37,477 nt of DNA. Source: Turicibacter sp. (GTDB taxonomy: Bacteria > Bacillota_I > Bacilli_A > MOL361 > Turicibacteraceae). A program made the position numbers and the translations under genes. Of the stretch, positions 31,194 to 37,477 are shown piece by piece (position 1 is the stretch's first letter; each line of letters begins with the position of its first letter). The stretch covers positions 1 through 37,477 of the forward strand of contig WRAJ01000021.1 in assembly GCA_009780245.1 (NCBI GenBank). Reading direction: 5' to 3'. Under the pieces are notes generated by a model. The model did not search any database. It was not told the DNA's origin and worked only from the letters and a program-made list of their open reading frames with translations.

Positions 31194-31856
31194 ATGACGG
31201 CTATCATTCAATTTTTCCAAGATTCATTTCGCGAAATCCTAGAAATCCACGTCCACAACCCGATGTGGATGGCCAGCCAAGTGTTTGCCTTTTTCTCCTT
31301 AATCACCATGTTCTGGTCATTCCAAATTAGAAACAAGCTAAAAATGATGTTACTCCTTGGACTAGGCACCACATTCCTCGCGGTCTCAGCAGCACTACTA
31401 GACAATTGGACACTAACCGTTCTCTTTGGTATTGCGAGTATCCGTAACTACGTTTTCTGCTACTTCGAGTGGCGTCAGCTAAAAGATCGCCCAGTTCCAC
31501 GCAGCATTTGGAAACTATTTGGCGGCATCTTCATCATCGTGACCGTTGCCTCTACCCTCATCCTTGTTCACATCATGCAAGTCAGAATCCATTCTGTATG
31601 GTTAGAATGGCTCATTTGCGGCACCTTAATCGGCCTGATCATCGGCAACGTCCTCGAAGGAGACACCCACTGCATGCGAATCAGCTTTATCTTCAACCGC
31701 ATCTTCAACATCATCAACCACGCCTACTTCTTCAACGTCATCGCCGTCATCATCGCCTGCTTAACCATCTCATCAAACCTCATCTTCTACCTCCGCCAAC
31801 TAATGGAATGGCACCACGCCAAGAAGCATAACCAGACTTACGTTTGGCCGAAGTGA
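31194..31856 (+). CDS. YgjV-family inner membrane protein
   Basis: A 220-aa integral membrane protein with about six TM helices. It has the family layout: QVFAFFSLITMFWSFQIRNK, then short hydrophobic helices with SIRNYVFCYFEWRQ, and a C-terminal pair after the MRISFIFNRIFNIINH loop. Members of the YgjV (Imp-YgjV) family have no settled function. An AAAGAGGTG site is 5 nt before the start. It is monocistronic and convergent with the defence operon. Confidence 0.75.
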   Translation: MTAIIQFFQDSFREILEIHVHNPMWMASQVFAFFSLITMFWSFQIRNKLKMMLLLGLGTTFLAVSAALLDNWTLTVLFGIASIRNYVFCYFEWRQLKDRPVPRSIWKLFGGIFIIVTVASTLILVHIMQVRIHSVWLEWLICGTLIGLIIGNVLEGDTHCMRISFIFNRIFNIINHAYFFNVIAVIIACLTISSNLIFYLRQLMEWHHAKKHNQTYVWPK

Positions 31857-31917: not shown

Positions 31918-33114
31918 CTACAAAAAAGCCAAAACCAACCGAACCAAAACCAACACAACTAAAACCCCCAACAACACCCGATACGGCCACTCAACCCGCG
32001 GCGCCTTAATATACCCCTCAAAATTCTCATCAGTAAAATACAACGTATCCGTATAAAACTTTTTCAACTGCCGATACTCCTGCTTATTCTGATAAATGTT
32101 ACGACAAAAGATCGCGATGATCACACCAAGCGCCAACAATAACATCGCCAGCACAACCTGAGCCCTTTCCGAAGAAGAAGCACAAAACAGCCTGACCCAT
32201 AAATCATTCTGGTCATCCGTCTGACTCACCTCGCTGTAAACATAAATCGCAACCGCAGCCAACCAACCAATCATCTGAGTGTGCACAGCCTTATAAGACC
32301 TAGCCATGGAATTGCTAATCGTTAAAAAATCATCCTTTAACCGATTCACTTGCTCAAAATAGTTTTCCGTCTTATCCGAAATAATGCGATTAAACGCCGA
32401 CTTGGACTTCTCCAACAACCCCTCAACATCAGAAAAAGATTTTACCTTTGCAACCACCTCTCTCACGACTTTCAGCTTCGTTTGGTAAGCGTTCGTATCC
32501 AGCTCATCGTTTACAACCCAGTCATACAACGGATATAACCGAAGCCCCTCCGGCTCCATGAATGACAACCTCAGCTCAAAAGGCTCCTCACTCTTTTCAG
32601 AGCGCACAGAAAAAATAAAATTCCCCTTCTCATAAGCAGAGCTATTAGCCAAAAAGAGCAGCACATAGATATTCTGTACCCACTTTACTCGCTCAGTCCT
32701 TCTCAACAGTTCAAACACATTAACCGAAACCCTTAACTTCGATTTCTCAACCTTCATATCAAGGTTATTCGCAGCAAGAACCGCCTCATAGATCGCCACT
32801 TCATCAGCAACATCAACCTCGATAAAATCTGTTTCAGTTGGATCATCGTAAAGAAATAAAGGCTCTTCGTATTTTTTTACAGAAAGCTTTTCACAAATGT
32901 CATTGAAATGATCTTGACGTTCCATGTAATCTGATTCTAAAAGCAAAAACGCACTGTTTTCAGTCGCATTGCTATAAATCGCTAAAAGTTCATCAAAAGT
33001 CACAAAATTAAAAGCTTGCCGCTTTTCTTTTAGATCACTTAATATTCTTCTATTCTCGCTAGTATCCTTCAAATAATAAGCTTGATGTTGCCAGTGCCCA
33101 TCCAACTGCTTCAT
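31918..33114 (-). CDS. Membrane partner of a putative two-gene defence operon, unknown family
   Basis: A 398-aa protein I do not recognise. The first 265 residues look soluble: mixed alpha/beta to about 200, then a helical, possibly coiled segment (about 211-273). Three TM helices follow: about 281-295, 318-337 and a C-terminal one at 377-397. So a large cytosolic part is tethered to the membrane by its C-terminal end. I use the ATG at 33114, with AGGTGA 6 nt upstream, so it begins just 2 bp after the previous stop codon. Translation is coupled to the upstream soluble partner. The position beside a helicase-nuclease and CRISPR suggests phage defence; this is inference. Confidence 0.7.
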   Translation of the reverse strand: MKQLDGHWQHQAYYLKDTSENRRILSDLKEKRQAFNFVTFDELLAIYSNATENSAFLLLESDYMERQDHFNDICEKLSVKKYEEPLFLYDDPTETDFIEVDVADEVAIYEAVLAANNLDMKVEKSKLRVSVNVFELLRRTERVKWVQNIYVLLFLANSSAYEKGNFIFSVRSEKSEEPFELRLSFMEPEGLRLYPLYDWVVNDELDTNAYQTKLKVVREVVAKVKSFSDVEGLLEKSKSAFNRIISDKTENYFEQVNRLKDDFLTISNSMARSYKAVHTQMIGWLAAVAIYVYSEVSQTDDQNDLWVRLFCASSSERAQVVLAMLLLALGVIIAIFCRNIYQNKQEYRQLKKFYTDTLYFTDENFEGYIKAPRVEWPYRVLLGVLVVLVLVRLVLAFL

Positions 33115-33116
33115 CC

Positions 33117-34070
33117 TCAATCACCTAACTCATTTTTAATGTTTTCCAAAAACGCACTTTCGACCCTCACACTAAGCCAGCCATCTTCAATTTTGATGCC
33201 ATTCTCACGCCTAAGCTTCACGAAATTATTGGTAGATAGTTTCGTATCCTCAGAAACTTGCAGCGTTTTTTTGTATTCCCTATTCAACTCGCTCTCAGAA
33301 ACCGTGAACTCAGAATCAATCAACGCGGCTTGATCCGAGAAAAACTCATCCTCATCTTTCACCTCAATCAATTCGAGTTGATTGAGAGTATGAATCAGTT
33401 TTTCTTTATCAAATACTTTATTCTCAAATAAATAATCTTCCGTCGCAAGTCTTATTTGTTTGATGTTCGGTGCACTTACGATGTCATCTGAAAACAGTTC
33501 ATCACTTTTGATTAATGCAATTAACTCTTTTGTATTTAACGCATCATCTCGTTGCCTAGACAAATCCAAAAAACTTTCTACCCAGTATTTTGCTGCTTTC
33601 GTATTCTTATCCACAATGATGATATTATCAAAGTCATTTTCAAAGATACAAATCTTATAATAACCAGCATCCGTTCCTAGCTGAGGTTTAATTTCATACG
33701 TTCCTAAATCAATGCCTTCTGTTCCTTCAAGCTTCAATAACAACAGTCGACTTGCTGCTTGACTAATAAACAAATGCCCTGCCGGAATTGACTTCTTCCG
33801 CCCATCACCTGATTTTCTCATCTCAGCTTGGAGCAGGCTAGATGCAAAAATTTCAAGTGAAAAGTCTTCTTTCGCTTTGTCATAATCATAGAGCAACACA
33901 TCAGACCTCTGCTGATCTGACGCAAGCGTACAGACTATTCTTGAATGCTTTAACTTCGAATCCTCCCCCAGCAACCTGTCAAAAATCTTTTCAATGTTCG
34001 TTCGCTTTTGATCATCAATGTCTACCCTCTCAACCTCTTCGCCCACATTATAAACCTCTAATCTACTCAC
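33117..34070 (-). CDS. Soluble partner of the two-gene defence operon (DUF4868- or NA37-like?)
   Basis: A 317-aa soluble acidic protein I cannot place firmly. The first half has alternating helices and strands around AEMRKSGDGRKKSIPAGHLFIS, KYWVESFLDLSR and DIVSAPNIKQIRLATEDYL. This vaguely recalls the nucleoid-associated YejK/NA37 proteins or the DUF4868 (KwaB) domain. The C-terminal end, FVKLRRENGIKIEDGWLSV, could be a small DNA- or peptide-binding domain. I favour the GTG at 34070 with GAGAGG 9 nt upstream; a GTG at 34079 lies on the site. Own promoter upstream. Function unknown. Confidence 0.7.
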   Translation of the reverse strand: MSRLEVYNVGEEVERVDIDDQKRTNIEKIFDRLLGEDSKLKHSRIVCTLASDQQRSDVLLYDYDKAKEDFSLEIFASSLLQAEMRKSGDGRKKSIPAGHLFISQAASRLLLLKLEGTEGIDLGTYEIKPQLGTDAGYYKICIFENDFDNIIIVDKNTKAAKYWVESFLDLSRQRDDALNTKELIALIKSDELFSDDIVSAPNIKQIRLATEDYLFENKVFDKEKLIHTLNQLELIEVKDEDEFFSDQAALIDSEFTVSESELNREYKKTLQVSEDTKLSTNNFVKLRRENGIKIEDGWLSVRVESAFLENIKNELGD

Positions 34071-34289: not shown

Positions 34290-36200
34290 TTAAATTACTG
34301 TACTATTTCTTCGGAAAAATATTTCAAAAGCACTAGTACTAAGATCTAAGATGAACAACTTCTTTTTTGCACGAGTTATTCCAGTATAAATTTCCTCTGG
34401 ACTTAATCCATTTTTCTTATCTGTCAGAACTAAAACTACTACATCTTCATCATAACCCTTAAAGCTATGAACTGTTGATAATTTTGTATGTCCGGAATTT
34501 TTTCGAAAATTTATTTTCAGCAATCGCTCAAAATTTTTAATATTTTTTTTCAACAATTGTTCATAACTATTGCTAATTTCCCTTTCAAATTCAAGTTTTG
34601 GATTTTTCTTTATTAATGCCCATTCCTCATTAGAACGTTTTTCTATCATCTTAAATTCTTTATTAGTTACAAAAGTACGATTGATACCTTTTTCATTCAT
34701 TTTCCTGAAGTTTTCCTGTATTATATCAAAAATTTCACGAAGAATCGCCTTGCTATAAGCTAAATAAGTGTAATCATTAGGAGAGATTCGCTCCTCAATT
34801 AAATATTTTTCAATAGCAATAATCCCTTGCGTTATTTGTTCTTTCTCAATTTTATAATAAATGACTTGTGAAATATCAAGGCTGAAATCGAGTACCCCTT
34901 GACCTTCCGCAATACCTAATTCCGACAAAGATACAAATGCTTCCTCAGATATTTCAGGGAGATATTCTTTTTCAAAAACCTGCGCCACTTCCAACACATT
35001 TCCTTTAGAACGATAAGAATTCGTTAATCCTCTCCACTTCCAATTCATGTGGGGGATAATTGGTAACTTGTCAATTCCCATCTCTTTTTTATAAATATTC
35101 TGTGAAACATCACCACACACCATGAAAAGACCATCTTCTTTCAGAAAATATTTTTCTACAATCCGCAACCAATTTTCTTCATAATCTTGAACCTCATCAA
35201 TAAAGACCGCATCATATCGACGAGGACTACCTCCTTCAAAAAAGGACAGCTTTGCCCAATCATCGTAAACATCATATGACAACTTTTTTTCACAGTTATT
35301 CGCTTCAGTAGCAAAATACTCATGATAATTACTAATAGTTAAATTTTTATTCTTAATTGTTTTCCTTGCACTATTTCGTATACGATCCTGCAAATAATTC
35401 CTTAGGGTAATATTAAAAGTTAGTACTAGTACTTCTAATTCTTCATCAAGAGCCATTGAAATCCGCTTAGCTAAAACCTCTGTTTTACCGCTTCCGGCTA
35501 TGCCATGGAATTTCAATCGTTTGTTTGTGGTTTTTATAATAGAGCGCTGTTGATCATCAAATTTAACTTCTCTTTGTTCAATCTCAGCACTAATAGGTAG
35601 CAGATATTGGGCAATGCTTCTATACAGTGTATCATTCAGTTGTGATGTTCTTATGCTCATAAAATTTTCTAAAATAGAAAAATCACCAAAAGAATTCACA
35701 TCAAATATCTTAGTAAATCGATGAGTATTTGAAAGTTCATCTTTAGAAAGTCTGTATGTACTTGAGGTCAAGAACACTGCCGTTCTGACTAGCCCATATA
35801 TCGATTCATTCTTGAACTTCTCACGTAATAATTCAAGAGAATGCTTCTCAAACAAATTATTTTTATATTTCAACACTTGTTGGAATGGACTTGCAATTTT
35901 CGCTTTATTATTTTTTAAAGACCATTCATTACCAGAACCATTCACATTATAATAAGCTAGATTCCAATCTTTAACCTCAATGATCCATACTCCACCTCCT
36001 GAGGTAGCATTTGACTTTTCAAGAATAACAAAATCTGGGCGATCACCATTAATATTGGGTTGAACGTGTAATTCAAAAAATCTTCCAGTCAAGCACTCTA
36101 ACCCTTTTTTAAAATAATCATAAACCTGCCATTCCCCATCAGTCATCGGTGTTTTGAAATTTCTAATTTCCTCTATTGAGGGATAACTAATAACATTCAC
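34290..36200 (-). CDS. NERD nuclease / SF1 helicase fusion
   Basis: A 636-aa protein. The N-terminal NERD (nuclease-related) domain carries PDFVILE (D56) and IIEVKDWN (E75, K77), the D-ExK set of PD-(D/E)XK nucleases. A UvrD-like SF1 helicase follows: Walker A GIAGSGKT (233-240), motif II FIDEVQD (333-339), STVHSFKGYDED near 580 and the arginine motif YTGITRAKKK near 610. It should unwind and cut DNA. NERD-helicase fusions are often in defence islands, and staphylococcal Nhi is a nuclease-helicase with anti-phage activity. The start is a GTG with GGAGG 7 nt upstream. Codon use is AT-rich compared with the rest of the window, suggesting transfer. Confidence 0.88.
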   Translation of the reverse strand: MNVISYPSIEEIRNFKTPMTDGEWQVYDYFKKGLECLTGRFFELHVQPNINGDRPDFVILEKSNATSGGGVWIIEVKDWNLAYYNVNGSGNEWSLKNNKAKIASPFQQVLKYKNNLFEKHSLELLREKFKNESIYGLVRTAVFLTSSTYRLSKDELSNTHRFTKIFDVNSFGDFSILENFMSIRTSQLNDTLYRSIAQYLLPISAEIEQREVKFDDQQRSIIKTTNKRLKFHGIAGSGKTEVLAKRISMALDEELEVLVLTFNITLRNYLQDRIRNSARKTIKNKNLTISNYHEYFATEANNCEKKLSYDVYDDWAKLSFFEGGSPRRYDAVFIDEVQDYEENWLRIVEKYFLKEDGLFMVCGDVSQNIYKKEMGIDKLPIIPHMNWKWRGLTNSYRSKGNVLEVAQVFEKEYLPEISEEAFVSLSELGIAEGQGVLDFSLDISQVIYYKIEKEQITQGIIAIEKYLIEERISPNDYTYLAYSKAILREIFDIIQENFRKMNEKGINRTFVTNKEFKMIEKRSNEEWALIKKNPKLEFEREISNSYEQLLKKNIKNFERLLKINFRKNSGHTKLSTVHSFKGYDEDVVVLVLTDKKNGLSPEEIYTGITRAKKKLFILDLSTSAFEIFFRRNSTVI

Positions 36201-36267
36201 TGAAATTCCTCCATTCTATACTATCGTTGTATTTTCTTATTTTTGCAAAACTTGACAGTGTGTCGGT

Positions 36268-37351
36268 ATTTCGCCACACACACCTAAACAAGGTGCGACA
36301 GATAAAAACTCTCATCAAGGAACGGCATACTTCTATTTCAATCCACGCACCTAAACAAGGTGCGACCAATTCCGAGTGATGCACGATGAGCTTTTTTTGT
36401 AATTTCAATCCACGCACCTAAACAAGGTGCGACAGCCGTTGTTATTACTGATGATGATCACTGCATAATTTCAATCCACGCACCTAAACAAGGTGCGACC
36501 AAACTTGACAAAGACTTTATGTCAAAAGGATCAATTTCAATCCACGCACCTAAACAAGGTGCGACATGCGCTATCTTCTGTGTCTTCTTCATGACGTGGC
36601 ATTTCAATCCACGCACCTAAACAAGGTGCGACCTTGTTGGTTCAGGTTAATAGTCCTTGTCGGATTATTTCAATCCACGCACCTAAACAAGGTGCGACGG
36701 TTGCTTTTTCGGGACACTAGAGGAGTTTACTGAATTTCAATCCACGCACCTAAACAAGGTGCGACAAATTAGAAATATGTGTCGTTATGCCTTAATTTTA
36801 TTTCAATCCACGCACCTAAACAAGGTGCGACAGAAGAATGCTATCTACATTTCGACACAAAAAGTATTTCAATCCACGCACCTAAACAAGGTGCGACCCG
36901 AGCAGGGCGCGGAACGAGTCACCGGATCGTCAATTTCAATCCACGCACCTAAACAAGGTGCGACAGCAATTTTAAATCTACGATCACGCCAGATTTTTTA
37001 TTTCAATCCACGCACCTAAACAAGGTGCGACACAGTTATCGCAATCAGCGACAGAAGATCAACTTATTTCAATCCACGCACCTAAACAAGGTGCGACAAC
37101 ATCACTTCGTCATGGGTTGCGCCCATTTCCTATTTCAATCCACGCACCTAAACAAGGTGCGACCAAAATCATCTAGCAAGTCCTCAATTTCTTTTCCAAT
37201 TTCAATCCACGCACCTAAACAAGGTGCGACAGCATGGTTATCCTGTGTCGCGAGGGTTTGTCGAATTTCAATCCACGCACCTAAACAAGGTGCGACAAAC
37301 ATATCCAACAATATATTCGACGGAATTATCATTTCAATCCACGCACCTAAA
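36268..37351 (-). CRISPR. CRISPR array, type I-C-like repeat, 16 spacers
   Basis: Seventeen repeats of 32 bp with spacers of 34-35 bp. Repeat starts: 36268, 36335, 36402, 36468, 36534, 36601, 36667, 36734, 36800, 36866, 36933, 37000, 37066, 37132, 37199, 37265 and 37331. On the minus strand the repeat runs GTCGCACC...GGTGCGTGGATTGAAAT with a GTCGCACC/GGTGCG palindrome and the ATTGAAA end, as in type I-C systems. The repeat at 36268 has five changes, the usual mark of the leader-distal end, so the leader should be on the right. The repeat at 37331 is cut after 21 bp. Fifteen repeats are identical. No cas gene is in the window. Confidence 0.98.
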
Positions 37352-37477
37352 TGAGTATTACGGCTCTTTAGCACCATCAATCCGCTAGTGGGTAGTCCAG
37401 TTGTGTGCTAGTGGGTGTTCCACCAATCTGCAGCGAACTGTGCCAGTAAAAAATATAAAGTAAATGACCATAATCAA
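37352..37477. mobile_element. Possible end of an insertion sequence that cut the array
   Basis: Right after the broken repeat the sequence changes to TGAGTATTACGGCTCTTTAG and carries two 16-bp direct repeats (GCTAGTGGGT-NN-TCCA at 37384 and 37407, period 23). Multiple sub-terminal repeats and a TG start recall the ends of IS21-family elements; the GGCTCTTTAG at 37362 instead recalls ISL3-type ends. No transposase is visible before the window ends, so this is tentative. Confidence 0.35.

Follow-up and report, generated by a model that had tools for sequence, protein, structure and literature searches.

A two-gene pair of a divergent NA37/YejK-fold protein and a membrane protein, a candidate Kiwa-like anti-phage system, in a Turicibacter defense island

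A coupled gene pair at the edge of a defense island

The window analyzed here is an entire contig (C21; 37,477 nt) from an assembly that is 75.75% complete, and the island it carries was therefore seen only as far as the contig end. Two genes on the minus strand, designated A and B, were found to be flanked by a YgjV-like gene downstream and by a NERD-UvrD helicase and a CRISPR array upstream. The features are listed with the evidence for each in parentheses.

31194-31856, plus strand: YgjV-like inner membrane protein, a convergent host gene at the island edge (Pfam Imp-YgjV, 29.3 bits)
31918-33120 (or from ATG 33114), minus strand: gene B, membrane protein of ~400 aa (ORF, alignment, model, hydropathy, conservation)
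33112-33120, minus strand: A/B junction, GTGATTGAGGATG (sequence; overlap in close-family pairs)
33117-34070, minus strand: gene A, soluble NA37/YejK-fold protein of ~317 aa (ORF, homologs, alignment, AlphaFold model, Foldseek, hhalign)
34157-34130, minus strand: strongest promoter-like match ahead of gene A, TTGTAA-16-TATAAT (10/12)
34290-36200, minus strand: NERD-UvrD nuclease-helicase (Pfam; PADLOC C3a187 "NERD+UvrD," E 3.4e-47)
~36267-37477 (contig end), no strand: CRISPR array with ~32-nt repeats, ATTTCAATCCACGCACCTAAACAAGGTGCGAC, at a spacing of 66 to 67 nt (sequence)

An initial annotation had described an uncharacterized, coupled pair of a soluble and a membrane protein lying between a host gene and a nuclease-helicase with a CRISPR array. 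The location was confirmed, with the host gene proving to be YgjV-like and the nuclease-helicase of the NERD-UvrD type, and the description of the pair was borne out, as homologous overlapping pairs exist and no library assigned either protein. Since such pairs recur in other species with their gene order kept and an overlap of comparable size, comparative sequence evidence confirmed both ORFs as real genes.

The longest ORF for gene A begins at GTG 34079 and encodes 320 aa. The most likely start is GTG 34070, because AAAGAGAGG is found ~9 nt upstream of it and the homologs begin at the same column; it also agrees with the end coordinate given in the initial annotation. For gene B, the options are TTG 33120, which would give a 4-nt overlap (TTGA), and ATG 33114, which is the more likely. 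The gene A stop codon (TGA, 33119-33117) overlaps the TTG and lies 2 nt before the ATG, which is itself preceded by AGGTGA. Translational coupling of the two genes is therefore likely from the layout, as the possible starts of gene B either overlap the stop of gene A or sit 2 nt past it. Among 11 readable junctions in the close family, the overlap was 4 nt in 8 and between 4 and 11 nt in all 11.

The claim that the pair has its own promoter fared less well. The 210 nt upstream of gene A do contain the region's best-scoring promoter-like site; such matches are, however, no more numerous there than chance predicts (15 found versus 15.0 expected). The GC content of the pair (40.0%) is offset from both the first 31 kb of the contig (45.6%) and the NERD-UvrD helicase (32.2%), which fits acquisition. 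Treating the A-B pair and NERD-UvrD as one unit was rejected, as their adjacency was kept in no other locus. The CRISPR repeats look type I-C-like by eye. Cas1 (PF01867) was not found in the 75.75% complete assembly, and so the array may be an orphan, or its cas genes may be unassembled.

Fold of protein A and topology of protein B

Protein A was not named by Pfam, NCBIfam, or PADLOC models, and PDB sequence searches found nothing. Residues E86, K116, K142, and W166 of A are invariant. A model was built from a 15-sequence alignment (AlphaFold pLDDT, 84.3) and compared with 350,542 PDB chains using Foldseek. The top match was YejK (9be2; E 5.4e-5, probability 1.00), followed by a weak match to KwaB (9mtn; E 0.032, probability 0.38). 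Full-chain TM-scores were low for both (0.31 for YejK and 0.24 for KwaB), so the domain arrangement of A probably differs from that of YejK and KwaB, or else the model is imperfect.

Sequence profiles pointed to the same fold. A itself did not match Pfam NA37 (PF04245; gathering score, 24.6 bits), while its homologs scored 24.0 (L013, the best, at E 3e-5), 20.4 (L010), and 18.5 bits (L011). When the A family was aligned by hhalign with nine NA37/YejK sequences, the match extended over 232 columns with a score of 59.4 (probability 93.7, E 1.9e-7), whereas 80 shuffles scored 24.8 at best and a reversed profile 15.8. On the combined basis of the Foldseek match, the Pfam matches below the cutoff, and the hhalign score, A is a divergent NA37/YejK-fold protein that just misses formal NA37 membership.

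The NA37 members YejK (PMC8934667) and StaR (PMC10053502) associate with DNA or the nucleoid and act on topoisomerases. With YejK of E. coli and StaR of S. pneumoniae, A has in common the fold class, profile similarity over ~230 columns, and a length of ~320 to 335 aa. In contrast to A, which is always coupled to a membrane partner, the housekeeping YejK (L044) is not directly followed by a membrane partner gene on the same strand.

Protein B was likewise left unnamed by Pfam, NCBIfam, and PADLOC models. It consists of an N-terminal cytosolic domain of ~280 aa, of mixed alpha/beta structure and then helices, followed by C-terminal transmembrane (TM) helices (model pLDDT, 77.5). TM helices were predicted at about residues 279 to 299, 319 to 341, and 378 to 400. 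Two of these were strong by hydropathy (321 to 339 and 382 to 400), whereas TM1 (~279 to 299) was weaker in the window copy, where the model shows it as the last part of a 49-residue helix. TM1 was clear in the S. epidermidis homolog and in distant homologs. The TM1-TM2 loop contains one basic residue and the TM2-TM3 loop six, a charge distribution that fits a cytosolic N terminus.

Conservation in B peaked at residues 236 to 300, comprising a juxtamembrane segment, SxFNRII..YFEQ..LKDDFL, together with TM1. This part reached 3.0 to 3.1 bits, compared with 2.3 to 2.7 for most of the rest and 2.9 for TM2. Structure prediction, which the initial annotation had proposed for both proteins, gave YejK as the top match for A and no PDB fold match for B. 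No catalytic motif was found in B either, and with neither a recognizable fold nor such a motif, any role given to it is a guess. A weak Pfam match to OKR_DC_1_N, below the cutoff (E 4e-4), was set aside because it recurred in no homolog.

Distribution and genomic context of homologous pairs

A contig scan with three query sequences gave only two loci, and the family-wide genome searches were far richer. Gene A was not found in other sampled members of the source order and family nor, ZOR0006 excepted, in 390 further genomes of the phylum sample (n = 392). A-B pairs, constant in order and mostly overlapping, were identified on a 22.7-kb plasmid of Staphylococcus epidermidis, in ZOR0006, and in ~13 of 337 Streptococcaceae genomes; gene A was also present in S. 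zalophi. Matches to gene A occurred in 15 of these 337 genomes, of which nine were close (one of them, L017, truncated by a contig end), one was broken (L018), and five formed a distant branch (L019 to L023; E about 1e-8 to 1e-10).

Wherever the contig permitted and the copy was intact, B directly followed A with an overlap of 4 to 20 nt. A separate search with B recovered exactly the 8 Streptococcaceae genomes with a full-length close A, and elsewhere in the 337 genomes only one marginal match of 35 residues. The two genes therefore co-occur strictly. The partner in the distant branch has 474 to 506 aa and the same layout as B, and by profile comparison it is homologous to B (probability 94.8, E 5.4e-8, score 66.8; controls at or below 29). 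No relative was detected by alignment in viral contigs, tblastn with A matched no phage record, and a viral fold library gave no significant match. At one further locus (L034, 7099-11037), what is left of a disrupted gene A (116 aa) precedes two uncharacterized genes and split PIN-like ORFs.

Pairs were found beside restriction-modification (RM) systems of varying type. In S. zalophi and three other streptococci (L027 to L029), the pair is embedded in a type I hsdR-hsdS-hsdM operon and lies between hsdR and hsdS. Identity among these four loci was 65 to 81% for hsdR, 45 to 53% for A, and 36 to 44% for B, so a single recent event did not give rise to all four. A type III system adjoins the pair on the S. 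epidermidis plasmid, and a type II system with a C5-methyltransferase adjoins pairs L031 and L032 at a site beside valS. At the same site, pair L030 and the distant pair L025 have no other defense genes alongside, and pair L033 was found near an ars operon. The distant pairs L024 and L026 occur at Eco57I-like methylase/helicase loci, and a TOTE primase-helicase is near L035. As the copies at the valS site are 76 to 79% identical, some of these contexts are not independent.

Recurrence of the pair beside known defense genes was thus observed in unrelated genomes, namely, in the window, on the plasmid, and at the RM loci. Such placement is defense-island behavior, short of proof of function. The neighborhood survey advised in the initial annotation thereby found homologous pairs recurring at RM loci and at the valS site. 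According to the annotation, its candidate for a new system would be contradicted by homologs lying always in core genome positions and never near defense genes, or by a profile assignment of both proteins to a known system. Neither was seen: RM, CRISPR, Gabija, and Qat genes adjoin (the last two in the case of pairs from Pseudomonadota), and no profile search made such an assignment.

Two of these settings merit separate description. The streptococcal site downstream of valS (L030, L031, L032, L025, and L035) carries cargo that varies by genome, comprising close pairs, distant pairs, C5-methyltransferase RM genes, or TOTE genes, and it resembles a hotspot at which defense genes are inserted. 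In L024 (6457-10454) and L026 (8881-12872), the distant pairs share an operon with the Eco57I-like methylase/helicase and a third gene of 473 aa, with a PbeA-like helicase upstream in L026; these operons are possibly a composite multigene defense system.

Using E. coli YejK as the query, NA37 proteins were also found on plasmids, and several of their genes are directly followed by a gene for a protein of 375 to 450 aa whose C-terminal part carries two or three TM helices. The carriers were Sphingomonas, Acinetobacter (two), Methylobacter, Pseudomonas, and Methylobacterium. Three of these pairs adjoin known defense genes, one next to Gabija (L049; GajA, E 1.9e-230; GajB, E 2.2e-234), one next to QatA (L050; E 3e-266), and one next to PDC-S06 (L051; E 8.9e-292). 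In PHROGs, the NA37 partner corresponds to phrog_5023 and the distant streptococcal pair to phrog_30064 and phrog_32650, which indicates that phages or prophages carry related genes as well.

The architecture of the Pseudomonadota pairs with three TM helices matches that of A-B, with NA37 first and the TM protein second, but their partners were not significantly similar to B (E 0.12) and were linked to it weakly through the distant branch (E 0.002). Direct homology of B to these partners was rejected, as the match was not significant and was outscored by the reversed control, although the alignment was in register at TM1. The distant-branch partner scored 33.6 against the Pseudomonadota partners, with controls reaching 27.4, so that a link between B and these partners by way of the distant branch is only suggestive. 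On the Vibrio plasmid pVP157-1 (L048, 1501-3490), an NA37/YejK gene is directly followed by one for a DUF6602 protein matching NucC/PD-DExK effector models, and NA37 is there coupled to a nuclease instead of a membrane protein.

These arrangements raise the possibility that YejK-fold DNA binders have been joined several times to different membrane partners, as in KwaB-KwaA, the NA37/phrog_5023-like pairs, and A-B. The result would be a general and mostly uncatalogued class of immunity systems, to which the Bacillota pair would add a new family. We put this forward tentatively, as somewhat short of an even chance.

Proposed function and comparison with known systems

In the Kiwa system, KwaB is tethered to the membrane by KwaA; by binding injected DNA, which it does not cleave, KwaB stops replication and late transcription (PMC12904381). 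The reading we prefer, at roughly an even chance, is that A-B is a stand-alone, mobile two-gene anti-phage system in which an A-B complex captures phage DNA at the membrane in a similar manner. DNA binding and capture are suggested as the likely role by the place of A in the NA37/YejK fold class near KwaB and by the wide occurrence of NA37 proteins paired with proteins of three TM helices. We infer that A would bind double-stranded DNA through its NA37/YejK fold. B would use its large cytosolic domain, together with the conserved juxtamembrane helix, to anchor A at the inner membrane face or to dock it there when triggered. Upon injection of phage DNA, the putative complex would grip the incoming genome at the membrane, and transcription or replication of that genome would be blocked, as by KwaB in Kiwa. 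Of the elements of this model, the coupling and strict co-occurrence of the genes, the fold of A, the membrane topology of B, and the recurrent defense context come from computation, whereas DNA binding, complex formation, protection, and capture at the membrane are proposed. Points against the model are the low full-chain TM-scores of A to YejK and KwaB, the absence of a significant profile link to KwaB, the lack of a recognizable fold in B, the copies without other defense genes at valS or near ars genes, and the partial dependence among the contexts.

The initial annotation had pointed to the logic of abortive or membrane-disrupting systems. In an abortive-infection mechanism, A would sense phage DNA or a change in DNA topology in the cytosol, and B would be an effector that depolarizes or permeabilizes the membrane once A signals. 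The joining of a long cytosolic domain to a highly conserved juxtamembrane segment and TM1 is a usual layout of a gated membrane effector and agrees with this explanation. However, B is limited to two or three helices and lacks any known pore fold, and KwaB, the closest characterized fold relative with a membrane partner, acts without killing the cell (PMC12593503). The evidence does not favor membrane disruption, and abortive infection appears rather unlikely, if still the main competitor. The likeness to the logic of Kiwa that the same annotation had drawn was supported.

Capture of phage DNA by a self-sufficient pair also has to be weighed against an accessory role, in which A-B would have no defense activity of its own and would serve a neighboring restriction system, for example by tethering its complex, or DNA that enters the cell, to the membrane. 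The four pairs between hsdR and hsdS fit such a role, as do those that adjoin systems of type II, type III, or the Eco57I-like kind. Yet the partners vary: they include RM systems of types I, II, and III, CRISPR/NERD-UvrD in the window, and, in Pseudomonadota, Gabija and Qat. Some copies are solitary at valS (L030 and L025) or sit by ars genes (L033). Nor does A follow hsdR closely, given the lower identity of A than of hsdR among the type I loci. An accessory role is accordingly improbable.

We hold it to be just as doubtful that the pair is a mobile modulator of the nucleoid or of DNA topology, that is, a membrane-tethered YejK/StaR-like protein serving plasmids, prophages, or islands and not defense. 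NA37 proteins are nucleoid associated and act on topoisomerases (PMC8934667, PMC10053502), they are common on plasmids and phages, and their partner families are represented in PHROGs. Against this, pairs lie inside RM operons or, in Pseudomonadota, next to Gabija, Qat, and PDC-S06, and the distribution of A is rare and patchy (15/337 Streptococcaceae and, besides its own, one genome among the 392 of the phylum sample).

Finally, it is very improbable that the pair is a diverged form of Kiwa in which A corresponds to KwaB and B to a larger KwaA: KwaB was the second-best PDB fold match of A and the gene order is that of streptococcal kwaB-kwaA, but there was no Pfam or PADLOC match at E up to 1 and no profile-profile signal, B is twice the size of KwaA, and Kiwa-bearing streptococcal genomes lack A.

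If the DNA-capture proposal is correct, a widespread and unannotated family joins Kiwa in halting phages by gripping DNA at the membrane, and a housekeeping nucleoid fold (YejK/StaR) is tied to immunity. The proposal would also account for the uncharacterized pairs found at valS and within type I RM operons of streptococci. Because PADLOC-DB 2.0.0, Pfam, and NCBIfam all lack the pair, models based on the present alignments would reveal it in other genomes. Among the open-access papers searched, none with an account of the Bacillota A-B pair or with a phage assay of it was found.

The comparison with Kiwa itself showed likeness in design and separation in sequence. Both are two-gene units in defense islands that encode a soluble and then a membrane protein, and KwaB came second after YejK for the A model. 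The order of soluble before membrane gene is common to A-B and streptococcal kwaB-kwaA, contrary to the initial annotation, in which the gene order was said to differ from that of Kiwa. KwaA beside streptococcal KwaB has 183 to 222 aa and is mostly membrane embedded, whereas B has ~400 aa with a cytosolic domain of 280 aa. A did not match the Pfam (PF16162, DUF4868) or PADLOC models of KwaB at E up to 1, PF16162 had no match in the source genome, and B did not match PADLOC KwaA at E up to 1. Membership of A-B in Kiwa was therefore ruled out by sequence. In hhalign, A gave no signal with KwaB, a weak negative, since the small streptococcal KwaB set was also not linked to YejK. True Kiwa, as detected by the KwaB model, was present in other streptococcal genomes, and A was in none of those.

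A further relevant system comes from DefensePredictor. Among its 42 DS systems validated against phage is one, reported in 2026, in which a transcription unit encoding a YejK domain gave protection in E. coli MG1655 (PMC13092281). This system has in common with A the YejK nucleoid-associated domain, and the A-B architecture may be partly known already through it.
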